IMG/VR virus record: IMGVR_UViG_3300025671_000044
Coordinates: 1-64,000 of that record
Source of the DNA: a virus
Length of the DNA stretch: 64,000 nucleotides
Strand: one strand, 5' to 3'
Below the pieces are notes generated by a model. It was given only the letters and a program-made list of their open reading frames with translations. It was not told where the DNA came from and did not search any database. Shown here piece after piece: positions 4,969 to 28,334 of this stretch. Position 1 is the stretch's first letter. Each line of letters starts with the position of its first letter. The position numbers and the translations under genes are program-made.

Positions 4969-5202
4969 TTATTTAGCTTCGACAAGACTAGGATATTTGA
5001 TTTTTAGAAAAGTTAAATGCTTTTTTTCTACATCGCAATAAAATGTGATGTTGTCTTTACTATATTCTTTCCATACACGACTACTATATTTTACTACATC
5101 ATCAACAAGAGCATCACCAACTTCATCTCTTAATGCATAAACATCTGTAGATTGATAATCAAAACAATGATTCATATCAATTCTTGCAACTAGTAATTTC
5201 AA
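4969..5202 (-). CDS. Small conserved-type protein of unknown function
   Basis: The 77-residue soluble product has acidic and basic residues evenly mixed and no motif that I recognise. Its ATG overlaps the TGA of the gp41 helicase gene (ATGA), so it is translated with the replication genes. A 47-base gap to the polymerase gene downstream holds a short GCGTTT/AAACGC hairpin without a T tract. Confidence 0.6.
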   Translation of the reverse strand: MKLLVARIDMNHCFDYQSTDVYALRDEVGDALVDDVVKYSSRVWKEYSKDNITFYCDVEKKHLTFLKIKYPSLVEAK

Positions 5203-6611
5203 ACTTCGGTGCCCAAGTTGTTTATAAAAGCTCTCAACTGTGTGCTATCAGTATCTGCTTTGATTTTGCCTACTGTATCACCTTCACTTGGATCTTCAGT
5301 TAATGTTTCGTTTGTGCGTTTGAGTTGATCAAATACAGTTGACTTGCGCTTGTTAAATTCTTGATATTCTTCATCCTCGCCCAAATCACGTATACGCAAG
5401 CTGTCTACATCAAACTCCAAATCAATCTTTTGTCCTACACCCGAACTACTACGTGTTTTCATCAACTGTATTTGATAGCGTCCACGTTCACGCATAGCTC
5501 TACTTGTAAAAATACCAATCAAGTTATCTGCTGTATTGATCTTTGAAATACCACCGGATATGTGGCTGTGATCAAATTCAATCTCTTCTACACTACTACG
5601 ATTCAACTGCGATGCTGTTACAAATAATGTATTAAGTTCCATAGCCAAGTTACGCAGTTCTTCAGACACATACTTGTCTTTGACAAACAAATTCTCTGCA
5701 CTAATCTTAGCTGCAATAGGATGCATCAAATCCAAATAGTCAACAAGCAATACGTCTACCTTCTTGCCTGTTTTAATCTCATATTCTTTTAAATAACTTC
5801 TAATGTCATTTGCGTTCTTGCCAGTTGGCATATACTTGACTTGGAATGCACCTGCTTTCTTTCCAATCATTTTAACTTTCATTTCAACATCATCAATTGT
5901 TTTAAAGATGTCTCTACTTGGAATATCTGTAGTCATACTATCTACACGCATACTAACCAAGTTTTCACTAAGCTCAAATGTCAAATAGATTACATTCAAT
6001 CCTGCCAATGCCCAGTTCACACCTAAGTTAGCTAAGAACAAACTCTTACCTGAACCCGAGCCGCCTGCAAAGATGTTAAGTTCGCCTCTGTTGAATCCAC
6101 CAAATAATTTCTTATCCAGTGCTGGCCAGCCTGTGCTTACCTGTCCGTTTTTGTCTTTAATTGCTTCTAGTCGTGCTCTTGGATCTTCCCAGTAATCTGT
6201 GCCTAAATCTTTTTGCAAACCAATTTGCACAGCCTTCTTAACTAAATCTTCAACTGGACCATATTCTCCTTTTTCCAACAAGTCTGCACTCTTAAGTATT
6301 GCTGCTTCTAGTGCCTTGTGCCTACTAAAAGTTTCAAACTCTTGTAGCAGCCAGTCATAATGATTCTCTGCTAAAGCGCCTGGATTTTTTAAGTCACTTT
6401 TAGTTGCAGCATTAACCATATCAAATGTTGGAAGTGCATTGTGTTCAACTACATAATCGTTGATAAACTTTGCGGGCTCTACTAAACGTCTGTCAAATGT
6501 GTTTGCATCAAACACAGATTGTGCCCGCACAAAACTTTCTGCATCTGTTAAAAACATTTCAAGATATACTTTTTGTATATCATATCCATAATCTGTGTTT
6601 TGTCTTGTCAT
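5199..6611 (-). CDS. gp41: Replicative DNA helicase, T4 gp41/DnaB family
   Basis: The 470-residue product has the DnaB-family layout. An N-terminal helical domain (1-150) is followed by a RecA-type ATPase with Walker A GGSGSGKS (183-190), Walker B LLVDYLDL (about 288-295) and ASQLNRSS (about 333-340), which acts as the sensor/H3 motif. In T4, gp41 is the hexameric 5'-3' helicase that unwinds ahead of the fork and pairs with primase gp61, whose gene lies 2.3 kb upstream in the same unit. Length is close to T4 gp41. It overlaps both neighbours by ATGA. Confidence 0.95.
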   Translation of the reverse strand: MTRQNTDYGYDIQKVYLEMFLTDAESFVRAQSVFDANTFDRRLVEPAKFINDYVVEHNALPTFDMVNAATKSDLKNPGALAENHYDWLLQEFETFSRHKALEAAILKSADLLEKGEYGPVEDLVKKAVQIGLQKDLGTDYWEDPRARLEAIKDKNGQVSTGWPALDKKLFGGFNRGELNIFAGGSGSGKSLFLANLGVNWALAGLNVIYLTFELSENLVSMRVDSMTTDIPSRDIFKTIDDVEMKVKMIGKKAGAFQVKYMPTGKNANDIRSYLKEYEIKTGKKVDVLLVDYLDLMHPIAAKISAENLFVKDKYVSEELRNLAMELNTLFVTASQLNRSSVEEIEFDHSHISGGISKINTADNLIGIFTSRAMRERGRYQIQLMKTRSSSGVGQKIDLEFDVDSLRIRDLGEDEEYQEFNKRKSTVFDQLKRTNETLTEDPSEGDTVGKIKADTDSTQLRAFINNLGTEV

Positions 6612-8062
6612 GAAAATACCTTTACGTTATACATATTAGCAAAGTCTTTTGCGTCTGTCAAGTCGTTAACAATTGGTTTTCCTTTGATATTAAGTGATGT
6701 ATTTAATAATATCGGACACCCTGTTTCCTCATACCAACGTTCTAGCAGTTTTCGTATTCCGCTGTCATCTGGTCCAACCGTTTGGACTCTGGATGTTCCG
6801 TCTGCGTGACAGATGGCAGGATACAGGTCTGGATAGGAGCAACTGGAGGTAAACTGCATATATGGATTTGCATATCCTTTAAAGTTATCATGATAGTGTT
6901 CTGCGAGCACAACGGGAGCAAAAGGTCTAAATTTTTGTCTTCGCTTGATTTCGTTGACTCGGTCTTTGATATCGCTGCCTCTAGGGTCAGCAAGTAAACT
7001 CCTATTGCCAAGAGCCCTAGGACCAAACTCTGCCCGGCCATTAGCCACACCAACAATCCCTGTGCTTTTAAGTTCCTGTATAAGTTTTTCAACTGGATAT
7101 TCTCCCTCTATGTTATATCCTGTGTATACATGATCCATAGACATATGTTGTTGTTTGTGTGCTAATACACACCCTATGGCTGATCCAGCATCACCTGGGT
7201 TAGGCATTATCCATACGTTGTCAAAAAACTTGTATGCCAACTGGTTAGCTGAACAATTTAGTGCGCACCCTCCCATGAGAACAAGATTAGAACTCCAACC
7301 TTGACTTTTGGCCGAGTGTAAAATACCGCAAAATAGTTCTTCATACAGCTTCTGGGTAGCAGCAGCAATGTCAAAATAGTCCTGCTCTGTAGTTAGATCA
7401 GGTCGCCACCACATACACCCTCTATGTAAATTGTCTTTGAATGTTATAGGGTCGCCGTTGACGTTGATAAAATCTTCTTTTATTCCGGCGTATAATCTAT
7501 CAGGGTCACCATAGGCTGCCATACCCATGAGAATATATTCGTCTTCCTGTGGCTTTAAGCCAATACGCTGTGTCATAGCACTATACCATAATCCTACACT
7601 GTGTGGATAGGTTTGTGAATATTTCTTTTCTAATTTATCACCCTTGCCATGCCACATAGTAAGTGTGTCAAATTCTCCTATGCTATCAATACAAATAACA
7701 GTAGCATCATTAAAATCGCTAGTATAGTAGCCGGCAGCAGCGTGGCTGAGATGATGATCAATATAAGTAATAGGACAAACAATTCCATAATTTTTCAAAT
7801 ACCTCTTGATATTGTTTTCACGTAGATTAATTCCTTGCCCTGCTCTAAATTGTCTCCATGTTTTCACCAGTGGACGTTCATACCAATACACACGGTCTGG
7901 TTCACCCCAACGTTTAGCATAGTCAATTAATTGACTGTTCAAATGCGCATCATTCTTTACACCACTGAAGCGTTCGCTGTGGCTGGCAAATTCTAATCCG
8001 TCTTTTGTAAATACAGCTAAAGCAGCATCATGGCTGTTAGCACTAATACCCCATTCAATCAT
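6608..8062 (-). CDS. NodU/CmcH-family carbamoyltransferase
   Basis: The 484-residue product has the family's signatures. DHHLSHAAAGYYTS (102-115) is the His-rich metal site of the ASKHA-type domain, with GGCALNCSAN (264-273), EFGPRALGNRS (345-355) and NTSLNIKGKPIV near the end. The family transfers a carbamoyl group from carbamoyl phosphate, via carbamoyl-AMP, to a hydroxyl of a sugar or related acceptor. It is slightly shorter than cellular members. It is embedded by ATGA overlaps between the helicase gene and a small gene, so it is expressed with replication, but its role fits the glycan genes further right. The acceptor is unknown. Confidence 0.92.
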   Translation of the reverse strand: MIEWGISANSHDAALAVFTKDGLEFASHSERFSGVKNDAHLNSQLIDYAKRWGEPDRVYWYERPLVKTWRQFRAGQGINLRENNIKRYLKNYGIVCPITYIDHHLSHAAAGYYTSDFNDATVICIDSIGEFDTLTMWHGKGDKLEKKYSQTYPHSVGLWYSAMTQRIGLKPQEDEYILMGMAAYGDPDRLYAGIKEDFINVNGDPITFKDNLHRGCMWWRPDLTTEQDYFDIAAATQKLYEELFCGILHSAKSQGWSSNLVLMGGCALNCSANQLAYKFFDNVWIMPNPGDAGSAIGCVLAHKQQHMSMDHVYTGYNIEGEYPVEKLIQELKSTGIVGVANGRAEFGPRALGNRSLLADPRGSDIKDRVNEIKRRQKFRPFAPVVLAEHYHDNFKGYANPYMQFTSSCSYPDLYPAICHADGTSRVQTVGPDDSGIRKLLERWYEETGCPILLNTSLNIKGKPIVNDLTDAKDFANMYNVKVFS

Positions 8063-8818: not shown

Positions 8819-8937
8819 TTGTAAATAAACGGATCTCTTTTTCTTAATTCTTTTAGACGTTTTCTATATCTACGTTCTTCTTGTATTTTTGTATAAGGCC
8901 AAATAAGTATTTGCCAAATTTTCTTTAAGTAAACCAT
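8815..8937 (-). CDS. 40-residue basic peptide, unknown
   Basis: An ATG at 8935-8937, inside the last codons of the primase gene, opens a 40-residue frame that ends in TGA at 8815-8817 overlapping the next ATG. The product has a short hydrophobic start (IWQILIWPY) and a very basic body (EERRYRKRLKELRKR). It keeps the chain of overlapping frames unbroken between primase and the DUF2061-like gene, the main reason to accept it. Confidence 0.5.
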   Translation of the reverse strand: MVYLKKIWQILIWPYTKIQEERRYRKRLKELRKRDPFIYK

Positions 8938-9917
8938 TTTTTAGCTCTCAATCTAATTTTAAGTGGCGAACTCTCTGCTGAATTCGCAATACTGTATAAT
9001 GTATATAGCCTTCCATATTTTGCTACTGCATCACCTATGTCATTTATTCCTATATCCCAATCTGGCATACTAACATGCCAACCTCGATCAATAGCTTGTT
9101 CAACTAGTTTAGCACCGGCACGATCTCTGTCGGGCACAACATATATATCCTTGCCCAGTCTGTTGAGTAGCAGTGCTTGAGCATCATTTATATCACTGCC
9201 TGTAAGTGCGCAACCGTCAACATGTAGCGCATCAATAGGACCTTCGCATAGTATAGTAAACACCTTGTTGTGCCCTTGTTCGTCTAAATTAAACACAAAA
9301 CCTGGCTGTGAGTCAGTAAGATACTTTACTCTATTATCCCCTACTGTGCGGGCTGTATAACCCACTACACGCCCCTCGTAGTAGAAGGGTATAATAAGTC
9401 TATCTCTATAAGCAAGTGTTGGCGACCAGTGATAATCTATGTCCTCAATATTTAAATCACGTTCTAACATATACTGAAAGCAACGTGCGATTCTTTCATC
9501 TAAATGACCAGCCTCTGCCCACATGTGTTTGGACAATGGCTCTGCACCTTCTGGTAGTTGTGTTGTAGCAAATTCAGGTAGTTCAACTCTGTGCTGCTGG
9601 ACTTCTACACCTTCGTTTTCACGCATAACATCTAGTGCTAGTTTTGTAATATCAGCATCAGGTGCGTTTAACCATTCTAACAGTTTCTTAAACTTGTAAC
9701 TTAGATTACGTCCTGGTTGCCAACTTGCTTTGAAGCCACAGTTGAAGCAATGATAACTTACCAAGTCACCTTCATATATTACACCGCCACGTCCTCTTGT
9801 GTCTGCATTTTCATTGTTATGCACACAACAAGGCGCATTAAAACTAGTCCACCCACTGGGTGTTGTTTTGCGCTTTGCAGGCAGATATAAAGTCAAGGTG
9901 TCAGATACGATGCTCAT
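8925..9917 (-). CDS. gp61: DNA primase, T4 gp61-like
   Basis: The 330-residue product combines an N-terminal zinc-binding module (C30, C31/H33, then CFNC at 57-60) with a Toprim catalytic core. CEGPIDAL (224-231) supplies the metal-binding Glu, and PDRDRAG (262-268) the Asp pair. Such primases make the RNA primers for lagging-strand synthesis and work with the gp41 helicase of the same unit. Length fits T4 gp61. The ATG lies six bases after a perfect -10 hexamer, so the message may be leaderless. It is the first gene of the replication unit running left to 1161. Confidence 0.92.
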   Translation of the reverse strand: MSIVSDTLTLYLPAKRKTTPSGWTSFNAPCCVHNNENADTRGRGGVIYEGDLVSYHCFNCGFKASWQPGRNLSYKFKKLLEWLNAPDADITKLALDVMRENEGVEVQQHRVELPEFATTQLPEGAEPLSKHMWAEAGHLDERIARCFQYMLERDLNIEDIDYHWSPTLAYRDRLIIPFYYEGRVVGYTARTVGDNRVKYLTDSQPGFVFNLDEQGHNKVFTILCEGPIDALHVDGCALTGSDINDAQALLLNRLGKDIYVVPDRDRAGAKLVEQAIDRGWHVSMPDWDIGINDIGDAVAKYGRLYTLYSIANSAESSPLKIRLRAKKWFT

Positions 9918-11151: not shown

Positions 11152-11526
11152 ATGTTATTAAAAGAAATAGAAGATCAGTATCCGTATATTAGTGTAGTCG
11201 CATATGGCGGACAAGAATACGTGGGCATAATTTCAAATCAAGATCAATTTGTTACAAGTATGTTTGTATATACAGTTTTAAAAACTGAGTATGATAAAAA
11301 ATTACTTTTAGATTTAGGTGATGTCTGGTGGTGGGAATCCAACAGAATGATTCCAATTAATATATTTTTGAAAAAAGAAATTGAAAACTTAAATTATTCT
11401 TTATTAACTATGAACAGTAAAAATGTTAAAATTGTTATTGGACCATGTGTAAATGTAAACAATTTAGCAATAAAAAGAATAAAACGTAAAAGTGTGCAAC
11501 TAATTAAAAAAACTGTTAAGCAGTAA
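11152..11526 (+). CDS. Conserved phage protein of unknown function
   Basis: The 124-residue product begins LLKEIEDQYPYISVVAYGGQ, a beginning I associate with conserved proteins of marine T4-like phages. It has a mixed alpha/beta N-terminal half and a very basic tail (AIKRIKRKSVQLIKK), suggesting nucleic-acid or acidic-partner binding. It is one of the few + strand genes, divergent from the structural gene at 11118 and converging on the mini-DnaE gene, which it overlaps by 11 bases at the 3' end. Confidence 0.7.
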   Translation: MLLKEIEDQYPYISVVAYGGQEYVGIISNQDQFVTSMFVYTVLKTEYDKKLLLDLGDVWWWESNRMIPINIFLKKEIENLNYSLLTMNSKNVKIVIGPCVNVNNLAIKRIKRKSVQLIKKTVKQ

Positions 11527-12076
11527 ATTGTTCACAAATTAAATTCATATGAACTACAACACTTACAGCATATGCAACTGCATGTGCTTTTTTAAAGTAG
11601 TAACTATTATCCTCTGGCTTTTTCCATACTTCTGTTTCGATCGTTTGCCATGTTTCGTTGACAAGATGCCTCTTCGCAGGCCGTATTATCGCTAACACTG
11701 CTGCTAGTTGTTCCACCGATATCGGCTTGAGCTTTCTTAGTATCTCCCCATGTCCGCTGACGTGAAACAGCAAGTTGGTAAAATCGTCGTGCTCCAGTAA
11801 GTCCCATTGTGGTTCCTTTTCCATTAGTTTGGTTAGGTGTTGTTCATCTTTAACATCATTGTAGATACTTACATTCAAAAAGTCAAGTTTGAAATAGCCT
11901 CTGTCTTCTGCTGTTTTGTAATCAATAGTAGCTAAATTGTCCACAGGATTATGAGGACACTCTGTGACATATACACCAGTGTTGTGTTTTTTACCTGTAT
12001 CTAGTTTTGCTACACGATGAGGTATTTTTTCTAATATAACACTGCGATCAGCAAAGTCTATATCAATATCTGGCAT
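11516..12076 (-). CDS. Drastically reduced DnaE-like protein (mini-DnaE)
   Basis: The 186-residue product opens directly with the C-family palm motif PDIDIDF (2-8). It keeps FKLDFLNV (62-69, third catalytic Asp as D65), a VEQLAAVLAIIRP segment and FKKAHAVAYAV (161-171) matching the conserved FNKSHAAAYA of DnaE. So it retains small pieces of palm and fingers in the right order but lacks the GSAGS loop, the PHP domain, most of the fingers and the OB fold. It is not a fragment of the 548-residue polymerase, which has its own copies of these motifs. It may be an inactive or accessory paralogue, or work in trans with another subunit; activity is unproven. Confidence 0.75.
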   Translation of the reverse strand: MPDIDIDFADRSVILEKIPHRVAKLDTGKKHNTGVYVTECPHNPVDNLATIDYKTAEDRGYFKLDFLNVSIYNDVKDEQHLTKLMEKEPQWDLLEHDDFTNLLFHVSGHGEILRKLKPISVEQLAAVLAIIRPAKRHLVNETWQTIETEVWKKPEDNSYYFKKAHAVAYAVSVVVHMNLICEQFTA

Positions 12077-12083
12077 ATCATTC

Positions 12084-12374
12084 CTAAATTAAAAATAACT
12101 GTATCATTGCAATACTGTTCATAACAACAAACCAAGCACACAATACTATTGCAAATGCTGCTTTACGAATCACAGTGCTAATAACTCCAAGTATACTTCC
12201 TAACAAATACATTGGAATAAAAATCTCAGTAGCAGGATCTAAAACTGTAAATGTTAAAACAGCACTTGCTGCAATTAATATTGTTGTTTCTGCCATTTCA
12301 CAATAAAATGCAACAGGTGATAGTCTATAACTTTCTTTACAAAAGTTTACAATATATTTAATCCAATTCTCCAT
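12084..12374 (-). CDS. Small multi-pass membrane protein, unknown
   Basis: The 96-residue product has about three hydrophobic segments (near 25-45, 50-67 and 70-95). A short amphipathic N-terminus containing WIKYIVNFCKE precedes them. It overlaps the nucleotidyltransferase gene upstream by 17 bases. Similar short membrane proteins are common in T4-like marine phages; I cannot assign a function. Confidence 0.65.
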   Translation of the reverse strand: MENWIKYIVNFCKESYRLSPVAFYCEMAETTILIAASAVLTFTVLDPATEIFIPMYLLGSILGVISTVIRKAAFAIVLCAWFVVMNSIAMIQLFLI

Positions 12375-12765
12375 TGCGCCTCATTTCTGCACGGATTTTT
12401 GTTGCACTTATGTTGTGTATTTCTTGGCCTAAGTTATGTTCGGTAAAAGTATAACCAACACCTCTACCATAACTGATATCAACAATATTGGGCACTATCA
12501 TAATAACATATTCTTTGCCGTATGTAAAGCCCTCTTTTTGTAATTCTTTTTTGATATTTTCTTCGACATCTGTAACAATAAATGGGTTATCGTCTTGTAT
12601 CATAGTTCGTCCACCTGAGGCATCTTGATCTTGTGGAACAGTTCTAATCATAATACAAACTTGTCCTGTTTCTGCTAGAGCACGTTTGAATAGTTCTGTA
12701 TGACCTGGATGCCAAGGTTGCCAACGTCCAAGCATTTGTGTAGTAGGTTTAAATCTATCAAACAT
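12358..12765 (-). CDS. Nucleotidyltransferase (NMNAT/NadM-like)
   Basis: The 135-residue product has GRWQPWHPGH (13-22), the H-x-G-H signature of the cytidylyltransferase fold in the GRFQPFHxGH context of NadM-type NMN adenylyltransferases. It also has ISATKIR (about 120-126), the second nucleotide-binding motif. The expected reaction joins AMP from ATP to a phosphate acceptor such as NMN, yielding NAD. It is somewhat shorter than cellular NadM. It overlaps the kinase-like gene by 8 bases. An NAD role is likely but another acceptor cannot be excluded. Confidence 0.8.
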   Translation of the reverse strand: MFDRFKPTTQMLGRWQPWHPGHTELFKRALAETGQVCIMIRTVPQDQDASGGRTMIQDDNPFIVTDVEENIKKELQKEGFTYGKEYVIMIVPNIVDISYGRGVGYTFTEHNLGQEIHNISATKIRAEMRRNGELD

Positions 12766-13183
12766 TATTTCTTTCCATCCATCTTTTCACAACAGGCAAA
12801 AGTTGTTCGTGTGTATCGTTAAACCAATCTTCTACGTGATAATCACAATGAGCAGGTGCTACAAACATTTTGTTTGTATCTTCAAATCTACCTTCTTTGA
12901 TTGTGTCCATCCATACAGTAAAGTCAGCATTGAATTCCATACGTGCTTGATCTGTGGGCGCAACAAAATCAGCAACAGCAATCTTTCCTGCCCGCACAAC
13001 ACCGTCTGCTAGGTAACGCATACGCCACGCTTGGCGCATCCGTCCTTCTGGTGTAAAATCCCAGTCTGCATAATGACTGCGTATTTCATCGGCATTGATA
13101 TGCACACCGCCTATAAGTTCTGCAAACGGTTTAGCAAGGGTAGTTTTACCACTCCCTGGTAAACCAAAAACTAATATTTTCAT
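12758..13183 (-). CDS. APS-kinase-like P-loop kinase
   Basis: The 141-residue product starts with the P-loop GLPGSGKTT (7-15). It continues with INADEIRSH, RMRQAWRMRYLADGVVRAG and a VADFVAPTDQAR segment, the order and spacing of adenylylsulfate kinases (CysC: DGDxxR, then IxPxxxxR). CysC makes PAPS from APS, but the C-terminal part is short and no ATP sulfurylase is seen here. The substrate could be another phosphate acceptor. It forms a tight pair with the NadM-like gene. Confidence 0.75.
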   Translation of the reverse strand: MKILVFGLPGSGKTTLAKPFAELIGGVHINADEIRSHYADWDFTPEGRMRQAWRMRYLADGVVRAGKIAVADFVAPTDQARMEFNADFTVWMDTIKEGRFEDTNKMFVAPAHCDYHVEDWFNDTHEQLLPVVKRWMERNNV

Positions 13184-14474: not shown

Positions 14475-14919
14475 GTTGCTCAGCAAGCTCTTTGATTTCT
14501 TTTTTTGTAGATATTCTAGCAAGTGTTTCTACCTCATCCATTTTCATTTCTGGATATATTTGTGCCAACAGTTTTACGGCTTTACTGCTGTCGTCTTTCT
14601 TTTTCTTCAACCCTATCCAAGGATGGAATTGTTTCTTTCCTGTTTTGCCAGCAACACATAATAGTTGCCATTGCAGTTTAACATGATTGGTGCCGCCTAG
14701 CACATTCCAATTTTTATTGTAGTATTCATTAATCTTAAACACTGCAAGTGCAGTTTTTTCATAGTTGCCTTTAACACTGCTGATATAACGATTGAGATTC
14801 CACAAATCGCCTTTGATATCTTTCTTGCCATCTTCGCCGGCAGCATCATACAGTTCTTTGAAGCCCATGTCAATGCTTGGGATAAGTTCTTTGAATAAGT
14901 CTAATTCTTTGTTAGGCAT
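14449..14919 (-). CDS. Conserved-type phage protein of unknown function
   Basis: The 156-residue product has the segments LIPSIDMGFKELYDA, WNLNRYISSVKG and FHPWIGLKKKK, which I associate with a conserved protein of marine T4-like phages without a known role. It is basic in the middle and helical at the C-terminus (KKEIKELAEQHGFD). It overlaps kdsB by 8 bases and the zinc-finger gene by 26. Confidence 0.65.
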   Translation of the reverse strand: MPNKELDLFKELIPSIDMGFKELYDAAGEDGKKDIKGDLWNLNRYISSVKGNYEKTALAVFKINEYYNKNWNVLGGTNHVKLQWQLLCVAGKTGKKQFHPWIGLKKKKDDSSKAVKLLAQIYPEMKMDEVETLARISTKKEIKELAEQHGFDKVDI

Positions 14920-15580
14920 TTTGTTTGTGCCACTTCACTACATCTTCTGGAGAGTTGATTTCGATGCCATCAAACTCTACTTCTACTACACCAATTTTTT
15001 GTCCGTTTTGTATCCAACGCAATTGTTCTAGTTTTTCAATATCTTCTTCTGGAAACTTTGTGCTTGTTGTATAAACAATCTTTGACTCTCTGTTATATCC
15101 GTATACACCCAAATGATGATCTCCATATTCTAAACTAGCACGTAAGAACCAATGCGCTCTACCTCTGCTGTGTATCATTTTAACACTGTTTGGATCATTT
15201 CGCAAGTTAAAATCCATTGGTGTATAAGCAGTTGCTACATCGCTGTGCTGTAATGCGCCTTCTACAGCACGGATAATTTCAGGTGTAATGTCAGGCATAT
15301 CGCCTTGCACATTTATATATCTATCATATTGTAAAACTTCATCAATAACACTCATACACCTGTCGGTGCCATTTGCCAGTCTGTAGTCTGTCATTATAGC
15401 ACGATCACCAAACAATGCCATTACTTCTTCGCTGTCAGCCAATACATATGTATCCAATCCAGTCTCAACACATCTGTCATACACCCGTTGAATCAATGGC
15501 ACACCGTTGAGTGGGCAAAGCATTTTACGTGGTAATCTTGTGGCATTAAGTCTAGCGGGTATTAGTATTGCTGTGGTCAC
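14912..15580 (-). CDS. kdsB: CMP-KDO synthetase (KdsB-like)
   Basis: The 222-residue product has the family pattern IPARLNATRLPRKML (7-21) for CTP binding, then TDYRLANGTDR and VQGDMPDI (metal and sugar site). Later come SLEYGDHHLGVYGY and EKLEQLRWIQNG, all typical of 3-deoxy-manno-octulosonate cytidylyltransferase. The enzyme activates KDO with CTP to CMP-KDO, the donor for KDO transferases. It is about 25 residues shorter than E. coli KdsB. It overlaps kdsA by ATGA, so the two sequential enzymes are coupled. Putative KpsC/KpsS-like transferases lie at 23-27 kb. Confidence 0.88.
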   Translation of the reverse strand: MTTAILIPARLNATRLPRKMLCPLNGVPLIQRVYDRCVETGLDTYVLADSEEVMALFGDRAIMTDYRLANGTDRCMSVIDEVLQYDRYINVQGDMPDITPEIIRAVEGALQHSDVATAYTPMDFNLRNDPNSVKMIHSRGRAHWFLRASLEYGDHHLGVYGYNRESKIVYTTSTKFPEEDIEKLEQLRWIQNGQKIGVVEVEFDGIEINSPEDVVKWHKQNA

Positions 15581-16347
15581 CGAAAACTCCTTACAGTTAG
15601 ATTTATTTGATATAGTTGACGAACTGTTTCGGCAAAGTCTTCTAGTCGTAGCATGTTAGGTCCATCACTAGGTGCGTTATCTGGATCAGGATGAACTTCT
15701 AAGAAAAAGTTATCAACGCCCATGCCAGCAGCAGCACGAGCAAGAGCTGGAACATAATCCCTATTCCCACCACTACTGTCACCTTGGCCTCCTGGCTTCT
15801 GGACTGAGTGTGTGACGTCAAATACCACAGGAACAGGAAAATTGTCACGCATATACTGGATGCCAGTAAAATCAGTGACCAAAGTATTATATCCAAAACT
15901 AGTTCCTCTCTCTGTGATCCAAACTTCTCGAGCGCCTTCAGTTTTACTTAGTATGCCTTTGACATCCCAAGGTGCTAGGAATTGTCCTTTTTTAATGTTG
16001 ACAATACAATTGGACTTACATGCTTCTACAATTAAATCAGTTTGTCTACACAAGAAAGCAGGTATCTGTAATACATCTACTACGCCTTTACATCTACTTA
16101 TTTGTCCTACAGTGTGAACATCGGTTAATATTTTAAAACCAGCGTCTCTAATCTTTTGAAAGTCAGGCAGTGTGTCATCAATACCTACACCACGCTTACC
16201 AGACATACTGGTGCGATTTGCTTTGTCATAACTTGCTTTGAAATAATATTCAATATCAAACAAATCACATACACGTTTACACTCTGTGGCAATTTCTAAA
16301 CTTTGTTCTAGTGACTCGTGTTGACACGGTCCAGCAATAATTCTCAT
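15577..16347 (-). CDS. kdsA: KDO-8-phosphate synthase (KdsA-like)
   Basis: The product of about 256 residues carries the KdsA signatures: IAGPCQHES near the start, FKASYDKANRTS, GFKILTDVHT, LQIPAFLCRQTDL, the GQFLAPWD loop, ERGTSFGYNTL and a late HPDPDNAPSDGPN. The enzyme condenses phosphoenolpyruvate with arabinose-5-phosphate to KDO-8-phosphate. The start chosen is the ATG at 16345-16347, because GGAG precedes it at the right distance; an in-frame ATG at 16359 would lie on the transcription start itself. No KdsC phosphatase or KdsD isomerase is seen, so the host must supply them. A sigma70 promoter lies directly upstream. Confidence 0.92.
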   Translation of the reverse strand: MRIIAGPCQHESLEQSLEIATECKRVCDLFDIEYYFKASYDKANRTSMSGKRGVGIDDTLPDFQKIRDAGFKILTDVHTVGQISRCKGVVDVLQIPAFLCRQTDLIVEACKSNCIVNIKKGQFLAPWDVKGILSKTEGAREVWITERGTSFGYNTLVTDFTGIQYMRDNFPVPVVFDVTHSVQKPGGQGDSSGGNRDYVPALARAAAGMGVDNFFLEVHPDPDNAPSDGPNMLRLEDFAETVRQLYQINLTVRSFR

Positions 16348-16348
16348 G

Positions 16349-16633
16349 TTAGTCTCCATCCTTTATAATATAATAGAGATTTAATGTTTTGTCAAGTTGT
16401 TTTCTTAGTGTAGGATATTCATCTGCTAAAGCAAATAAATGTTTCCATTGATCATAACTTACTATGCCTAGAGCCTCGTTTACTGCTTCTGGATCTCCGC
16501 CTATTACCCAACGCCCGTTGTATGTGGTCTTTTTGGGCTCGTCTCTAAATCTAGCATATACAACACCATTGGCACGTTCGTATATTAAACTTTCGTGTGC
16601 TAGATCTTGTTTGGGCGGACATTCTATTATCAT
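16349..16633 (-). CDS. Small conserved-type protein of unknown function
   Basis: The 94-residue soluble product reads as a beta-rich N-terminal half (GVVYARFRDEP, GRWVIGG) and a helical C-terminal half. It resembles a small conserved protein of marine T4-like phages in feel, but I cannot name it. It overlaps the dehydrogenase gene upstream by ATGA, and its 3' end contains the kdsA promoter. Confidence 0.65.
   Translation of the reverse strand: MIIECPPKQDLAHESLIYERANGVVYARFRDEPKKTTYNGRWVIGGDPEAVNEALGIVSYDQWKHLFALADEYPTLRKQLDKTLNLYYIIKDGD
16367..16395 (-). promoter_or_regulatory. Sigma70 promoter of the kdsA-kdsB unit
   Basis: On the - strand TTGACA (16395-16390), 17 bases and TATATT (16372-16367) match the consensus at 11 of 12 positions. 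It lies inside the last codons of the 94-residue gene and about 20 bases before the kdsA ATG. The KDO genes can therefore be transcribed early and separately from the genes upstream. Confidence 0.8.
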
Positions 16634-17421
16634 TTGCGCATACCTGAAAATGTTGTGGTTTTTAATTTTTCGTTGTCATTCTTGATGCTGTCAATAAGAT
16701 CAAATTCAAGTCCGTTTTGTTTTAGAGTGTGCGCCAGTGCTGCTACATCTTTGGGCAAGCACATTCCTCCGTAGCCACGCAATCTATTGTTTACATCCAA
16801 GTATATGTTTTTGGTTTTGCCTGTTTGAACATACGCATCTTTGACTTGTGAATAATCACAATCAAACTTTTCACACAATTCGTAAAACACATTGGCAAAC
16901 ACAATACGCAATGCCGCATAAGAGTTGTTGAAGTATTTTAATATTTCAGCTTCTGTTGGTGCTAGTTGTTTAACTGCTTTGGGTAGGTGTCCGTGTGCTT
17001 CTACAATTTTTTTATACACATACGGATCATCTGTTCCAATTGCTAATAATTCGTGATTGTTGATAAAGTCATCTGCTGCTGCTCTTTCACGCAAAAACTC
17101 TGGAGCACAACAGATTGTTAGTGACGGATATTCATCAATCATGCGTTCTGTAAACCCTGGCTCAACTGTGCTGCGAATACACACAACACCACCATAGTTG
17201 ATTTGTATCAGATCTTGTAGCACACTTTCAATTACCGTAGTATCACAAGCACCGTTTGCCTCTGGAGTAGGCAAGCACAAGAACACCACTTCTGTATCTG
17301 CTAGGTCTTTTATCTCAGTATCAAACTTGATGTCGTGTTCAACAACATCATGCTCTAACAATCTAAAGCCTGTTGCGTTTGCGTTTCCTACAACGCCCAT
17401 TCCAATAATACCTAGTTTCAT
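16630..17421 (-). CDS. Short UDP-glucose/GDP-mannose dehydrogenase-like enzyme
   Basis: The 263-residue product has the NAD-binding GIIGMGVVG (4-12), APEFLRERAA (106-115), the central-helix motif KYFNNSYAALRI and the active-site loop GYGGMCLPKD with nucleophile C221. Cellular Ugd-type enzymes of about 390-450 residues oxidise a UDP-sugar to the uronic acid. Here the C-terminal UDP-binding domain is missing although all catalytic residues remain. It overlaps the epimerase gene by ATGA; the pair would suit a uronate or pentose branch. Confidence 0.85.
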   Translation of the reverse strand: MKLGIIGMGVVGNANATGFRLLEHDVVEHDIKFDTEIKDLADTEVVFLCLPTPEANGACDTTVIESVLQDLIQINYGGVVCIRSTVEPGFTERMIDEYPSLTICCAPEFLRERAAADDFINNHELLAIGTDDPYVYKKIVEAHGHLPKAVKQLAPTEAEILKYFNNSYAALRIVFANVFYELCEKFDCDYSQVKDAYVQTGKTKNIYLDVNNRLRGYGGMCLPKDVAALAHTLKQNGLEFDLIDSIKNDNEKLKTTTFSGMRK

Positions 17422-18281
17422 AATAAACTTTCCACTGTCTTTTTAAGCCCTACTTCCAAAGGCGTATAATCTGTAAATCCTGTAAGTGTTTGCACTAGTG
17501 TTGTGTCAGGACATCTACGAGTAGCACTGCCTTTTGGTCCAGGCAATATTTCTAACCTGTCTGGATTAATGCCTATATAACCCATTATCATTTTTGCAAC
17601 TACCGAAATACTGATTTCGTTGTCGTTGCCTACATTCACAGTTTGATTACTTCCTGTTTTAATTAACACGTCTGTCATACGCACAGCATCATCTACATAA
17701 CAAAAACTTCTTGTGTCATTGCCGTTGATGTAATACTCGCCTTGCTTACAGCGTTCTACAAATTCATTTACAAAGTGATCAATCTGTCCTGGTCCATACA
17801 CGTTAAAGTAGCGTATGATGAGATATTCTAAACCACTGTTTGCTACCAAATTTTCACCTAGAGCTTTCGGAATGCTATAACTCCAACGTGGGTTTGTAAT
17901 GTCATTATACATCACAGGCACTGATTCGTCTGTGGGCACATGATAGTATCCGTTGTCAATTGTGCTGTTGAATATTTCACAAGTGCTGGCAAATATGAAC
18001 TTAGTTTTTGTGCTGTGATAGCGTTTTATTAAGTTTATAGTTGGCAGTGTGTTGTTGATACAAACATCTGTTGGATGTTGATAGAATAATTTAGTGCCGT
18101 TGGTTGCTGCTAGATGAACAACTACATCAGTGTCAGGCAATTGGTTAGCCACGTCAGAACATTTTAAATCACTTTCAAAACCATCTTTTTGATCGTAACC
18201 AATTACATCATATGTATCCTTTACATAGTTGTAATAATGACTGCCTATGAATCCTTTATGTCCGGTGACTAATATTTTCAT
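17418..18281 (-). CDS. NAD-dependent nucleotide-sugar epimerase/dehydratase (SDR)
   Basis: The 287-residue product has TGHKGFIGSH (Rossmann glycine motif, 6-15), HLAA, STCEIF, the catalytic YSIPK (135-139) and RYFNVYGPGQ. RSFCYVDDAV follows, typical of extended SDR enzymes of the GalE/UXS/RmlB group. It uses NAD to epimerise, dehydrate or decarboxylate a nucleotide sugar. The ATG at 18279-18281 overlaps the TGA of the upstream gene (ATGA), which decides the start over a TTG six bases further out. Beside a UDP-sugar dehydrogenase, a UXS-like step is possible but unproven. Confidence 0.88.
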   Translation of the reverse strand: MKILVTGHKGFIGSHYYNYVKDTYDVIGYDQKDGFESDLKCSDVANQLPDTDVVVHLAATNGTKLFYQHPTDVCINNTLPTINLIKRYHSTKTKFIFASTCEIFNSTIDNGYYHVPTDESVPVMYNDITNPRWSYSIPKALGENLVANSGLEYLIIRYFNVYGPGQIDHFVNEFVERCKQGEYYINGNDTRSFCYVDDAVRMTDVLIKTGSNQTVNVGNDNEISISVVAKMIMGYIGINPDRLEILPGPKGSATRRCPDTTLVQTLTGFTDYTPLEVGLKKTVESLL

Positions 18282-18964
18282 ACCCAATTTGCCTCTTCTA
18301 ATGTTTGACTAATAGTATAATGATCTTTTGCATTTTTGAATGTATGGTGGATGTCAATATTTCCATTCATATGCTGTATCATATAATTAGCAAATTCTCT
18401 GTTTTGAGTATCACTCATATGGCAACATCTAAAGTCATTGTGTTCTGATAATTTTAGATGATTCCAATCAAGTCTACTAATGTTTATCATTCCTACATCA
18501 CTACGATTAGGAAAAGGAAATGCATATACTATATGCGCATCAGGCCGACGATATAATATACTATCTATATAAGCGTTATGATATACAATATTACTATCAT
18601 AATTTTTTATTTTGTTAATTTCGTTTTCTATAAAAGGCCAGATTTTTTTATTGTATTTTTTAAAACTTTTTAATTCTGTTCTGTCCATTTTATCTATATT
18701 TGAAAATTTTATATCTTCTATATCTGCATCTTGGTAAAAAGCTATATGCACAGATTTATTATTTTCTAAAGTAAAAATACTGCCTCTGTGAAAACTACTA
18801 ACAATAAAAATAATTTTGTCAAACTGTTTGTGTGTTTCTAAAAATTTATAATAGGAATAATCAATACTACTGCCGCCTTTATTAAAACAACGAAAATCAC
18901 TGTTTATATAATCAACCCACGAATCACCTGGCTCTGCATAACTATCTCCGTATATTCCTATCAT
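18278..18964 (-). CDS. SGNH-hydrolase-like protein
   Basis: The 228-residue product opens with IGIYGDSYAEPGDSW, resembling the catalytic GDS block I of SGNH/GDSL esterases. NKGGSSIDY (block II) follows, and a late HMSDTQNREFANYM could be block V. Such enzymes add or remove acyl groups on sugars, and phages carry many uncharacterised versions. Catalytic competence is not certain because block III is unclear. It overlaps the glycosyltransferase upstream by ATGA. Confidence 0.65.
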   Translation of the reverse strand: MIGIYGDSYAEPGDSWVDYINSDFRCFNKGGSSIDYSYYKFLETHKQFDKIIFIVSSFHRGSIFTLENNKSVHIAFYQDADIEDIKFSNIDKMDRTELKSFKKYNKKIWPFIENEINKIKNYDSNIVYHNAYIDSILYRRPDAHIVYAFPFPNRSDVGMINISRLDWNHLKLSEHNDFRCCHMSDTQNREFANYMIQHMNGNIDIHHTFKNAKDHYTISQTLEEANWV

Positions 18965-19737
18965 TCAATTAACCTTTCAAAATACCCTGACACTAAATTT
19001 TTTTTAGTTGGACCTTTTTCGTGTGTTAAAAATTCATTCATTGGACAATGATTTAAAGGAGTATGTGTGTCTACATCATACATTGTAAATGATAAATCAT
19101 TTACATTTTTAAATTTTTTTGCTGCATACATGCATACTTGTCCGTCATACCATCTTTCAATTTCTTTTGGTTTTTGTTCATATGATACCTTATATTGTTT
19201 AACAAACTCTTTGTAATCTACATGATTCTGGTTTACTACAACAAACCCAGATTCTGCACTTATACCTAAATTTAAATAATCGTGACTAAACAATCCTATT
19301 AGATGTTTTTTTGAACAAGCATAATTTAAAAAACTAGTATCAATTTTTTGTTTAAAAAATATATCAGCATCTACCCAGATAATATAATCGCCTTTTATAT
19401 TTTCTAATGCATGTAAAAAAGCAAAACCTTTTTTTGCAAATTTGACTTCTTTTTTATTTTCTGTTTTGTTGCAAAAATCTTTCCAATTTTTTAAGCATAC
19501 ATGATTCCAGTCATATACTTTTAGTTTGTCTGTTTTTGTAAACTTTGAGTTTATTTTTTCAGCATATAAATGTAACACAAAATTGTCAGGTGTATTTTTT
19601 AAAAAACTGTCAATCATAAAACAACCAAACCTATCAAAATAGTATTGGTCCATAGTAGACACAAATTCACATTTGAGTCTTGGATTATTACCTTTTAGTT
19701 CAATTGGTAAACTTCGTTTTTTAAATTTCTGAACCAA
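18961..19737 (-). CDS. GT-A glycosyltransferase-like protein
   Basis: The 258-residue product has YIIWVDADIFF (D123-A-D125), the metal-binding DxD of GT-A glycosyltransferases. An FLHALENIKGDY helix precedes it and a DGQVCMYAAKKF acceptor-side segment follows. The + strand gene at 24163 encodes a protein of the same general build. It overlaps the cupin gene's extended frame and lies in the sugar operon, so it probably transfers one of the sugars made here. Donor and acceptor are unknown. Confidence 0.8.
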   Translation of the reverse strand: MVQKFKKRSLPIELKGNNPRLKCEFVSTMDQYYFDRFGCFMIDSFLKNTPDNFVLHLYAEKINSKFTKTDKLKVYDWNHVCLKNWKDFCNKTENKKEVKFAKKGFAFLHALENIKGDYIIWVDADIFFKQKIDTSFLNYACSKKHLIGLFSHDYLNLGISAESGFVVVNQNHVDYKEFVKQYKVSYEQKPKEIERWYDGQVCMYAAKKFKNVNDLSFTMYDVDTHTPLNHCPMNEFLTHEKGPTKKNLVSGYFERLIE

Positions 19738-20068
19738 CTGTTCGTCTCACAATATCATTGTGATTAAATTCTGCCCAGTATAATTCAAAAGCTACACCGT
19801 CTTCTAGTCCTTCAAACTGATGAATAACACCCGGCTTTACCTGTGTAAAATCGCCTGGACCTAAAATAGTTTCATCAATTAAATTATAATCTTTTTGCCA
19901 TACACGAACAAGCATTTTGCCGGACTCTACAAAAAATCCATTCCATTTAAATCTATGTTCATGCTCACTACACTTGTAGCCGCCTTTGAACTCAATTCGG
20001 TGAAACTCTAACACACCGTTGGCGTGAATAAGTTCAGTTTGTCCCCAAACTTTACCTGCAATCATTTT
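19721..20068 (-). CDS. Cupin-domain protein
   Basis: The product of about 115 residues is one cupin barrel. GYKCSEHEHRFKWNGFFVESG is the first metal motif, and LGPGDFTQVKPGVIHQFEG the second, with His residues that can bind a metal. Such small cupins act as sugar epimerases or isomerases, or as partners of nucleotidyltransferases. The start is set at the ATG 20066-20068 because AAGGAG lies just before it; the frame runs on to 20092. A related cupin is fused to a nucleotidyltransferase at 27558. Confidence 0.82.
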   Translation of the reverse strand, partial: KMIAGKVWGQTELIHANGVLEFHRIEFKGGYKCSEHEHRFKWNGFFVESGKMLVRVWQKDYNLIDETILGPGDFTQVKPGVIHQFEGLEDGVAFELYWAEFNHNDIVRRTVGSEI

Positions 20069-20075
20069 ACTCTCC

Positions 20076-20582
20076 TTATAATAGTAGACCAAAGTCTATA
20101 ATTTCACTTTGCCTATTGATATCTTTTACAAAATACACACAGTCTGGATTCTTACTATCTGTAATTGGAACACATAACAAATGTCCATTACGCATCTTAG
20201 GAAAATACCATTTTACGTCATTGTAAAAGTTTGTTATTTCAATTTTAGCAAATCTTGGATGTGTTCCAGTTAAAGGATTAAATAAAAATGCTTCAAATCC
20301 TCTTTCGTTTAAACTAGTTAAAGGCAAAACTTCTAAGTCACTACCTGATTCGCTACAACCTACAGCAACACACCAATCTAATGGCATTGTGATTTCATTT
20401 CCTGCTATATTCAAAACTACAGCAGGTGCATTAAATGATTCTAAAAAAATCAAAGGATTAAAAAAGAAATCAGGATCTTCAGGATTACTATTATCCAATA
20501 CCGAAAATCTTAAATCATCTTCAATCACTTCTGGTAATGAATTTAATGAAAAACTATGGTTTTCAAGTGTTAATATTCTCAT
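20076..20582 (-). CDS. Conserved-type phage protein of unknown function
   Basis: The 168-residue product has no membrane segment and contains MPLDWCVAVGCSESGSDLEVLPL, NVKWYFPKMRNGHLL in sense if not exactly, and a late VYFVKDINRQSEIIDF. I associate this pattern with a conserved protein next to uvsW in marine T4-like phages. Its role is not known. It begins directly after the stop of uvsW. Confidence 0.65.
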   Translation of the reverse strand: MRILTLENHSFSLNSLPEVIEDDLRFSVLDNSNPEDPDFFFNPLIFLESFNAPAVVLNIAGNEITMPLDWCVAVGCSESGSDLEVLPLTSLNERGFEAFLFNPLTGTHPRFAKIEITNFYNDVKWYFPKMRNGHLLCVPITDSKNPDCVYFVKDINRQSEIIDFGLLL

Positions 20583-22046
20583 TTATTTCCAATCCACTTT
20601 CTCAATTGTGAATGGGTATTCTGCTTCCTTATAAAACTTTTTACGTTGGGTAAGGTGCCGCTTCGCAAACTTACAAGTGCTTGTAAGATCCCATATTTGC
20701 ACGAAGTCTTTGTCCTTTGCCTTTCTAACGCCTCTACCTATACTTTGAATAACTCTAACAAAACTTTTTCCGGGCTCAATAAGAACAAGGTTAAAAATGC
20801 GAGGAATATTAATACCAACAGCAGCGACACCATAAGTGGCAATAACCACGTGATTAGTTCCTTCGTTGATTTCGTCATACGCATCTTTTCTATCCTTTAG
20901 TTTTACGTCTCCTTTTACAAAGACTGATCCTGGAATAAGTTCTTGTAGCATTTCGCCTGCACTAATTCTATCTACAAGTATTAGAGTGTTGCCTGATTCT
21001 TTTACTGTGTTTAATAATTTGCCTAAGTAATTTATTCTGTCTTGATTTGTAACTAGATATTTTAATTCTTCTTGATAGCCTCTATGTGCCACTGTATCAA
21101 TAAGTTGCACAATGTTTACGTGACACTGTGATAGCACACCTTTGTCTTGTAATTCTTTTGCTGTAATCTCACCAATAACTGGACCTAAACTTGCATGTAT
21201 TGATTCAAACTCAAACTTCTCTTTAGGAATAGTTCCTGTTAGTCCCCAACGTATTGGAGCATTTTTTAAGTTGCGTGTAAGCAAGTTTTTCAACACTTCT
21301 GCTTTTGCTTGGTGAACTTCGTCTACAATAATTGTGCTCACACCATCTAAGAACTCTGCTAGTGATAATACTGCTGATCCGTCCTTGTGCTTCTTGTCCA
21401 GTATGTTTAATGACTGCCAAGTGCAGATGGTGTGAGTCTTACCTAACTCTTTTCTGTCTCCAAAATAAACGCCAACATCAAGTCCGCAATTTATATAGTC
21501 TTCTTCTGTTTGTGTTACAAGTGACTTGTTAGGCACAATAACTAAACTGCGTCCATACTTTTCACTCATATGTGATAGTGTAGCAGTTGTAATAGTTTTA
21601 CCTGCGCCAGTTGCAATCTGTTGCAAGCTCTGGGGATTGTTTGCAAAGTTGTTGATTGCTTCTACTTGATAGTCACGCAGAATGATTTCTTCACCTTCTG
21701 CAGGATGCCCTTTGGGCCAACGCACACCTTGATCAGCCCAGTAACGTTCTGTAACTTGTGGAAAATTTAATTTTATTGGATGTCGTCGGTCTTCAATGTC
21801 AACAATTTGGACATGATTTTTTTCCAATACAGAAGTAATAACATCAAGATGATTAACGTAGCCTGTGCCGCCAATACCAAAGAAAGCAACTTTACCGTCC
21901 CATCGTCCCAATTTATACTGGGGCATGTATCGAGCATAAGGCACTTCAAATTTAAGAGCATTGGAGAGCTTTCGTCTGACATCTACGTCTAGTCCTTCTA
22001 GTTTAATATTAACTTCGTCTTCTATAATTAATTTGCAACTAGCCAC
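20583..22046 (-). CDS. uvsW: UvsW-type helicase
   Basis: The 487-residue superfamily 2 helicase has a small N-terminal domain (1-95), Walker A ATGAGKT (145-151), DEVH box (242-245), LTGTIPK, and the C-terminal motifs LILVDR and IQSIGRGVRK. In T4, UvsW branch-migrates recombination intermediates, unwinds R-loops and moves replication from origin-dependent to recombination-dependent mode. Length fits T4 UvsW. It abuts its neighbours on both sides and is transcribed after the 402-residue gene from the promoter at 23260. Confidence 0.93.
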   Translation of the reverse strand: MASCKLIIEDEVNIKLEGLDVDVRRKLSNALKFEVPYARYMPQYKLGRWDGKVAFFGIGGTGYVNHLDVITSVLEKNHVQIVDIEDRRHPIKLNFPQVTERYWADQGVRWPKGHPAEGEEIILRDYQVEAINNFANNPQSLQQIATGAGKTITTATLSHMSEKYGRSLVIVPNKSLVTQTEEDYINCGLDVGVYFGDRKELGKTHTICTWQSLNILDKKHKDGSAVLSLAEFLDGVSTIIVDEVHQAKAEVLKNLLTRNLKNAPIRWGLTGTIPKEKFEFESIHASLGPVIGEITAKELQDKGVLSQCHVNIVQLIDTVAHRGYQEELKYLVTNQDRINYLGKLLNTVKESGNTLILVDRISAGEMLQELIPGSVFVKGDVKLKDRKDAYDEINEGTNHVVIATYGVAAVGINIPRIFNLVLIEPGKSFVRVIQSIGRGVRKAKDKDFVQIWDLTSTCKFAKRHLTQRKKFYKEAEYPFTIEKVDWK

Positions 22047-23254
22047 TAGCTAAATACTCCTGCATAAGTTGGAAAATAGCTAGGACTATCATCATGATAT
22101 ATATGTAAATCACAAACATCATTAACGTATATTCCTAACTGAGTCATCATTCTTGTGCTTGATAATGACAATACACATTGTGGCTTCCAGTCTACAGTAA
22201 GTAATAGTTTTGGAAGTTTAGACTTACTTATATATACAATTTTTGTTGATTTGTCAACCCAATTGTTAAGTTTTTTCTTGTGAATATATTCGTTAAAATT
22301 TTTATCTTTTTCTCTTGTGTTTTCTTTTCTATATAATACTGATTGATTTTTGTTTTCTACTATATTTCTAAATGCAGTATGTAATGTAACCAGTTGATCA
22401 TATTCTTCTTCTTTGTCTAATAAACAAAGAATAGGAAATCTTTCTAACACCAGTAAACTTTCTACAATACTGTCAATTGTGTGGTTTTTAGGATCTATAC
22501 AAATTGCTGTCTTACTACGATGCGCAATATAGTTAGCAAGTGTTGCATCTTTATCGCATGTTATATAATTTAATCCATACTGTCTTTTTCTGTCTAACAG
22601 ATGTAATCTTTCTTTTTTGTCAATAAAGTTTATACCTTTTTTTGGAATATTTTTTAGTTGATTATTCCATAGTCCTGCAATGTGTTTGCCAGGTTCTTGT
22701 TTTATTTCTAAAATTTGTTTGTAATATTCTATTAGTTTTTTATCTATTTCAAAATCTTTTTTGACAAATATTTCACACACATCAAATACTGTAGATTCAT
22801 TTAATTTAAAATAGTGTTCATGTGAACCTTTTTCATGCCAATATTGTTTACGGTTTTTGGTTGCTACAGCATCAATTTTTAAAATATCTTTTTTGCTAAA
22901 AGGAAATCTAATTTTGATCCATTCTCCTTGTGAATCTGGTTTGGGAGAACCTTCAATAATTTTTACATATTTGCTACGGTCAATTTTACGTAGTGGCATA
23001 CGTAAACTAGAAATTGCTGGTTGAAAATTGTTATATCCGTTACCAACAAACTGTGATTCATACATAGATAGTTTGGTTTGCATCAATGAAAATTGTCTGT
23101 CTGTTAATGCTTTACCTTTAAAAACTTGTCGGGCAATACTGTTTATAATAGTTTTATCATCACTGTCTATATTAAATTTGCATAGAGCATGAGTCCGCAC
23201 TAAGCCAGTAATTATTTCTAAACAATCTTCGATAGTTTCTAATTTTGTATTCAT
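22046..23254 (-). CDS. Unknown protein coupled to uvsW
   Basis: The 402-residue product is basic and helical at the N-terminus, with alpha/beta segments in the second half (NYITCDKDATLANYIAHRSK, ILCLLDKEEEYDQL, KIVYISKSKLPKLLL). These could be a degenerate nucleotide-binding fold, but I find no complete Walker motif. It shares one base with uvsW and has its own sigma70 promoter. A nucleic-acid role is a guess from position only. Confidence 0.7.
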   Translation of the reverse strand: MNTKLETIEDCLEIITGLVRTHALCKFNIDSDDKTIINSIARQVFKGKALTDRQFSLMQTKLSMYESQFVGNGYNNFQPAISSLRMPLRKIDRSKYVKIIEGSPKPDSQGEWIKIRFPFSKKDILKIDAVATKNRKQYWHEKGSHEHYFKLNESTVFDVCEIFVKKDFEIDKKLIEYYKQILEIKQEPGKHIAGLWNNQLKNIPKKGINFIDKKERLHLLDRKRQYGLNYITCDKDATLANYIAHRSKTAICIDPKNHTIDSIVESLLVLERFPILCLLDKEEEYDQLVTLHTAFRNIVENKNQSVLYRKENTREKDKNFNEYIHKKKLNNWVDKSTKIVYISKSKLPKLLLTVDWKPQCVLSLSSTRMMTQLGIYVNDVCDLHIYHDDSPSYFPTYAGVFS

Positions 23255-23259
23255 AATAT

Positions 23260-23288
23260 ACTATAACACTTTATAAACATTTAGTCAA
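23260..23288 (-). promoter_or_regulatory. Sigma70 promoter of the unknown gene-uvsW unit
   Basis: On the - strand TTGACT (23288-23283), 17 bases and TATAGT (23265-23260) match the consensus at 10 of 12. Only five bases separate the -10 from the ATG at 23254, so transcription is expected to start at or inside the start codon. Confidence 0.75.
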
Positions 23289-24128
23289 TCTTTTCAATGG
23301 CATACCAGCAGCTATTTCATCTACTGTGTATTCTGTCCAAGCATAATCATTTAACCATTGTGTTCTATCAGGCATCAAAGGATTTTCAATATCATGTAAA
23401 AAATCTATATCATTGCCTACATCATAAGCAAGAGAAGAAGGACTAACAAAAGCAGGAACGCCTTGGATGATACTATGACACCCAGGATTGCTACTGTAAC
23501 TAACAGTAGCAAATATATTACTAAACCCCATATCAAAATCATCATAAGTGCCTGCAATATGTCTTGGCTCCTGTCTTTCAACATAACGCAATCCACGTTC
23601 TATGTGTTCTAGCCTACAACGTGGATGTGGTCTAAACAAAATAGGACGGTCAGTATACTTGCGTATTTCGTCATATGTATTTAAGAACCAATTGCTCATG
23701 CGTGGCATGCCTTGCCATTGTAGACTTTTATCATGCTGTCCGCATATAAGAATATATTCGCCATTTCTACGCCAAGGCTGTAATTCAAGTCCTAACGCTT
23801 TTGCTCTCGACTCATCATTTCCTCTATCACCGAAGTAGGCATCACGGTTGATTCCATTGATTCCAACCTTCCACGTTTTGCCTCTTTTGATTCCTCCGAC
23901 TTCAAGGACGATAATCGGTCTGTTATGGGAAACACAATAGGACCAAACACTTTGGTTCCTAGCCATTCTGCCATGAAAAAGAACGCTCCAAATAACATGA
24001 ACATCGGCATGCCCAAGATTATCACTGTTGCTAATACTCCAGCCATTGCGAACAATAGAATCGCCAAAAGCCCGAAAAATATCTTTGGAATTAAGTGCAC
24101 CGTATTCTGTCCATAATCTAAATTTCAT
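23271..24128 (-). CDS. KpsC/KpsS-like capsule polysaccharide (KDO) transferase-like protein
   Basis: The 285-residue product has the GT-B-like features of the capsule polysaccharide family. GEYILICGQHDKS is a nucleotide-domain strand, PILFRPHPR the conserved His-Pro motif, and TVSYSSNPGCHSIIQGVPAFV (about 209-229, shown to its length limit by key residues S, N, G, P) the donor-site helix. KpsC and KpsS transfer KDO from CMP-KDO onto lipid-linked glycan. With kdsA and kdsB in the same genome a KDO transferase role is reasonable, but the sugar is inferred. A composite early/late promoter precedes it. Confidence 0.75.
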   Translation of the reverse strand: MKFRLWTEYGALNSKDIFRAFGDSIVRNGWSISNSDNLGHADVHVIWSVLFHGRMARNQSVWSYCVSHNRPIIVLEVGGIKRGKTWKVGINGINRDAYFGDRGNDESRAKALGLELQPWRRNGEYILICGQHDKSLQWQGMPRMSNWFLNTYDEIRKYTDRPILFRPHPRCRLEHIERGLRYVERQEPRHIAGTYDDFDMGFSNIFATVSYSSNPGCHSIIQGVPAFVSPSSLAYDVGNDIDFLHDIENPLMPDRTQWLNDYAWTEYTVDEIAAGMPLKRLTKCL

Positions 24129-24134
24129 AGTTAA

Positions 24135-24163
24135 ATAGTAGCATATTTATCAAGGATTGTCAA
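24135..24163 (-). promoter_or_regulatory. Composite sigma70/late promoter
   Basis: On the - strand TTGACA (24163-24158), 17 bases and TACTAT (24140-24135) form a sigma70-type promoter. The spacer contains the late element GATAAATA (24151-24144). The -10 is six bases from the ATG at 24128. The same design occurs before gp32. The region also holds the ribosome site AAGGA (24152-24156) of the divergent + strand gene. Confidence 0.65.
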
Positions 24164-28322: not shown

Positions 28323-28334
28323 AAAGATATTTAA

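Follow-up and report, generated by a model that had tools for sequence, protein, structure and literature searches.

A 186-residue jumbo-phage protein that begins at the DnaE palm motif: a candidate half of a split DNA polymerase III α

The window analysed here, 64,000 nucleotides from IMG/VR record IMGVR_UViG_3300025671_000044 (a 97.8-kb fragment), contains a 186-codon open reading frame (ORF) whose product starts exactly at the catalytic palm motif of the bacterial replicative polymerase PolIII-α (DnaE). The same window encodes an intact 548-residue PHP-less DnaE (Table 1). We consider it probable, at roughly three in four, that the ORF encodes the metal-binding, C-terminal half of a thumb-reduced PolIII-α (C-family, Pol-β-like nucleotidyltransferase) that jumbo myoviruses make as two chains.

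Table 1. Features of the window around the C-half gene
Feature	Position	Strand	Remarks
Intact PHP-less DnaE, 548 aa	3275..4921	(-)	RGS at 62, PDVDIDF 100, KVDIL 223, RRAFAKK 347, AHAVN 389
DnaB/gp41-type replicative helicase	5199..6611	(-)	Downstream neighbour, conserved 31/31
DnaG-type primase	8925..9917	(-)	Downstream neighbour, conserved 55/56
Convergent gene, phrog_11637, 124 aa	11152..11526	(+)	11-nt overlap with C-half 3' end; adjoins C half in 76/76 loci with room
Candidate C half of split minimal PolIII-α, 186 aa	11516..12076	(-)	Catalytic palm segment and short fingers; D3/D5/D65, K63, H31, R132, H165, Y169
C2H2 zinc-finger-like protein, phrog_11058, 247 aa	13779..14522	(-)	Upstream neighbour, conserved 61/61
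phrog_11758 protein, 156 aa	14449..14919	(-)	Upstream neighbour, conserved 60/60

Identity, conservation and fold of the 186-residue protein

The ORF opens with an ATG preceded by an AGGAA stretch, with an in-frame TAA four codons upstream. Over residues 3–183 its product matches the profile of phrog_11778 (DNA polymerase, 197 positions) with E = 3.9e-63, a score so far from chance that the gene must be real. The motifs listed in the preliminary description lie where it had placed them (PDIDIDF at residues 2–8, FKLDFLNV at 62–69 and FKKAHAVAYAV at 161–171), and the abrupt start at MPDIDIDF proved to be a property of the family: a stop codon abuts the initiating Met in seven relatives, and C halves of the RaK2/121Q type carry only a short additional leader, in which case Pro2 is replaced by Thr. 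The family is represented in 63 annotated phage records, almost exclusively of jumbo myoviruses (such as RaK2, 121Q, PA5oct, CBB and Atu_ph07), and 554 or more viral contigs also encode a member; many phage records label its members hypothetical or membrane proteins. Profiles were needed to place the family, because Pfam alone missed it (sole match DNA_pol3_finger at 0.12) and a phmmer search against the PDB was marginal. The C-half profile gave collinear matches that begin at the catalytic motif.

Residues D3, D5 and D65 correspond to D401, D403 and D555, the active-site aspartates of E. coli PolIII, in which H760 is the presumed steric gate (PMC8485763). Retention of all three aspartates had been noted from the single sequence, and a survey of homologues bears it out: the equivalents of E. 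coli D401, D403, D405, H511, G514, K553, D555, R639, P640, H760 and Y764, with D3, D5, D65, K63 and H165 among the corresponding positions, do not vary across 115 diverse homologues. The palm motif and the equivalents of D401/D403/D555, K553, H511, R639, H760 and Y764 are shared with bacterial PolIII-α (E. coli and Taq DnaE, Geobacillus PolC). Where dS was finite, the dN/dS ratio of the C half (Nei–Gojobori) was ~0.06–0.19. These values include comparisons among contigs that bear the 548-residue DnaE, and the C half is therefore not decaying in them. A possible in-frame stop in the C half of relative G034 was rejected, as that ORF is intact at 190 residues.

Predicted alone with AlphaFold, the protein adopts a confident PolIII palm/fingers fold (mean pLDDT 94.2) and not the unrelated fold that would have spoken against a polymerase origin. 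VIA-align placed model residues 1–186 on E. coli 400–781, Taq 461–838 and PolC 971–1296 with Z up to 9.6; the best 15 matches were all C-family (Z 6.3–9.6), and Foldseek agreed (E 6e-4). Of the parts of a canonical single-chain DnaE (PHP, palm, thumb, fingers, HhH/clamp region), the 186 residues hold half the palm and short fingers. The thumb is mostly lost, with ~22 instead of ~104 residues between the equivalents of D405 and H511, and the equivalents of P640 and F756 are 27 rather than ~115 residues apart, the finger stretch with R709/R710 being gone by sequence.

The complementary N half and the family-B polymerase

A stand-alone N-terminal piece was suspected because the window's 548-residue DnaE gave a match at the end of the 171-position profile of phrog_11127, a family that carries the GRGS motif; the C half lacks this N-terminal palm segment. 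N halves were found as ORFs of ~170–200 residues in two 236-kb marine relatives, in 10 of 10 complete named phages tested and, by means of a more closely related query, in C-half-bearing contigs of 256 kb and 275 kb. Among 60 listed phage records that include a C half, 59 contain the N half, the exception being a 109.5-kb partial record. The two genes lie 11–230 kb apart. Scans with SCTP-2 and Phosso queries found no more divergent N halves.

The two families are complementary. N halves end in GVGRGSSVASYVLYLIGVHRINSIQYGLDWREFLR and a stop codon, and C halves begin with MPDIDIDF; wherever the end of an N ORF was read, it lies 0–3 residues past EFL or EFF, just ahead of the DnaE loop RFLNPER-VSM-PDFDVDF, at whose last motif the C ORFs begin. 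The N profile matches Taq PolIII-α 380–454. Modelled alone, the N half was poor (pLDDT 56), and the above-noise matches of model residues 76–185 were polymerases only, with Z of 6–7 (PolC 824–964; E. coli 278–393, Z 6.1 by VIA-align). With models that match E. coli DnaE 278–393 and 400–781, the N and C halves thus represent adjacent parts of one enzyme. In place of PHP the N half has an N-terminal stretch of ~75 residues in which DnaE similarity is undetectable. The pair, ~186 + 185 residues on two chains compared to 1160 in bacterial PolIII-α, is without PHP, most of the thumb, the R709/R710 segment, the HhH/clamp-binding region, the OB and the CTD, and has nothing past ~781.

A family-B polymerase (PolB) was present in all 10 genomes with both halves that were tested for it. 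In relatives, the N and PolB genes lie within ~30 kb of one another, and in relative G001 they are ~120 kb from the C half. Neither the N half nor PolB was found in the window's 97.8-kb record, in which the segment from 63 to 97.8 kb holds structural and recombination genes and yielded none of the N half, PolB or the N-neighbour genes when searched for them. Likewise, neither was found in fragments bearing the 548-residue DnaE (all such contigs ≤101 kb), and large fragments without N are also without PolB. The missing N half is thus likely a consequence of truncation of the record.

A split of this kind is already known. Group 2.2 jumbo phages were described as having PolB together with a phage-specific minimal PolIII-α divided over distant genes, the N-terminal piece being an NTP-binding protein and the C-terminal piece a Mg/template-binding protein (Iyer et al., 2021; PMC7824862), and the ORF fits the latter. 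The group 2.2 enzyme (phrog_11127 + phrog_11778) and the pair seen in the relatives share the same two pieces, the distant genes and the PolB companion; the present lineage differs in being marine, in that some members, including the window, add an intact PHP-less DnaE, and in that the fragmentary record of the window yielded no N gene. The preliminary description had called the protein far smaller than any known replicative polymerase of the family; its small size is real, but a two-gene minimal PolIII-α had been published in 2021. Phage CBB, a jumbo phage with PolB, was reported to encode a 'truncated' PolIII-α of 172 residues, CBB_328 (PMC5259590). By size and position, CBB_328 probably corresponds to the N half located at 242974 in the CBB genome, and would be the complement of the C half rather than its counterpart. 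Our literature search found no biochemical study of the split PolIII-α, although such a search does not prove that none exists.

Gene neighbourhood and the 548-residue DnaE

The C half lies among replication genes in a fixed order: the phrog_11758 gene, the zinc-finger gene, the C half, the phrog_11637 gene, a gene for a 262-residue protein (70/70), primase and DnaB. The phrog_11758 protein is possibly a clamp-loader small subunit; phage Slicko01 encodes an RFC small subunit just upstream. The phrog_11637 gene is next in the 76 marine loci with room and in most named jumbo phages, usually with an overlap of 4–26 nt. Between the primase and helicase genes, 36 of 42 relatives have a gene for a 484-residue carbamoyltransferase-like protein (by sequence; 6608–8062, minus strand, in the window), which may possibly act in base modification. 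At 12358–13183 (minus strand), adjacent ORFs for a 141-residue P-loop kinase-like and a 135-residue nucleotidyltransferase-like protein match the two halves of phrog_10255 (230 aa), apparently another split or fusion pair. The replication genes adjoin sugar-nucleotide/glycosyltransferase-like genes at 14912–28958, which by eye include KdsB/KdsA-like, UDP-sugar dehydrogenase-like and NAD-epimerase-like genes. Elsewhere in the window, a glycosyltransferase-like gene adjoins the gene for a 1496-residue protein (47876–52366, minus strand) with ~12 repeats of 'MFW...D...F.FDLYF.H.N.YDR..NH.F'.

The 548-residue DnaE gene directly follows the DnaB gene and is present in 5 of the 19 relatives with enough downstream sequence. 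No full DnaE was found in the ten complete named phages examined. Each of seven contigs selected for the 548-residue DnaE gene also holds the C half. Derivation of the C half from this protein was considered and rejected, as the two are weakly similar (E 0.002) and the C-half family occurs in many phages without the larger gene. The 548-residue DnaE is a variable companion, from which the C half is not derived and on which it does not depend; its distribution suggests that some of the C-half phages gained it. PHP-less phage DnaEs, including the 548-residue protein, that of LR756508 and the DnaE-like proteins of Streptomyces phages, resemble the C half in being phage-encoded, C-family and without PHP, but are single chains with all motifs, RRAFAKK included. 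LR756508, a 484-kb phage, has an intact PHP-less DnaE and PolB and neither N nor C; its weak matches to the N and C families fall inside its DnaE ORF. The C-family companion is thus a single chain in some phages and a split pair in others, with perhaps both in the present lineage.

A proposed two-chain enzyme and its alternatives

In the model that we favour, the N half, which covers roughly E. coli DnaE 278–393 and includes the GRGS motif, would be the product of a distant gene, and the two chains would meet at the loop that joins RFLNPER to MPDFDVDF in DnaE, rebuilding one active site. In this site, D3, D5 and D65 would bind two metal ions, and H165 would serve as the steric gate that selects the sugar. 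The triphosphate would be held by K63 and the GRGS segment, an assignment that we presume from general knowledge of the C-family site. The assembled enzyme would probably extend primer ends, assisting the phage's family-B replicase in tasks such as primer extension, gap filling or repair. Ordinary processive synthesis by the N + C pair seems doubtful because little of the thumb remains and, by sequence, the R709/R710 finger segment is absent.

The main rival is that the two chains assemble on a C-family core into some other nucleotidyltransferase, such as a terminal transferase, a primer maker or a modifier of protein or RNA, because the thumb and the R709/R710 segment are missing; genomes with N and C, moreover, already have a PolB replicase. 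We regard this alternative as unlikely, as the His that gates dNTPs (for its role in E. coli, see PMC8485763) is invariant and the neighbours are replication genes. Far less credible is a polymerase made of the 186-residue protein on its own, even though that chain has all three aspartates, K63 and H165 and folds confidently alone, since the GRGS palm segment that completes the C-family nucleotide site is missing from it and exists as a separate, co-inherited protein. The first proposal of a minimal or helper C-family polymerase module pointed in the right direction, but the protein holds half of an active site.

The other option raised initially, a repurposed inactive paralogue, is disfavoured by the invariant catalytic Asp, Lys and His residues and by the low dN/dS values. 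As a structural replisome scaffold or an aid to the neighbouring 548-residue DnaE, such a paralogue would account for the co-occurrence of the two genes in the window and in all tested contigs that carry the larger gene, but the 548-residue DnaE is missing from 14 of the 19 loci with room and from 10 of 10 named phages tested, and we give this explanation very little credence. Intein-split DnaE is known from cyanobacteria, and by that precedent the halves could be joined by protein trans-splicing. A split intein was nonetheless rejected as exceedingly improbable: N ORFs stop 0–3 residues past EFL and C ORFs start at Met, often right after a stop codon, leaving no coding room for an intein.

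If the two chains of the proposed enzyme do reconstitute an active polymerase, they would form a minimal C-family polymerase core of ~370 residues, against 1160 in E. coli, and two widely separated genes would each encode part of its active site. This would be the smallest functional catalytic core of the C family and a simple system in which to probe the contributions of thumb and fingers, and it would bear on the view, put forward by Iyer et al., that modules of this kind resemble ancestral PolIII. More tentatively, the DNA polymerases of the lineage may number three: a family-B replicase, a thumb-reduced C-family enzyme of two chains that has a task of its own and an intact PHP-less DnaE, acquired later and inserted after DnaB. 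The locus also raises the question of why another polymerase, of bacterial type, is kept under strong selection in a phage that has a family-B replicase.
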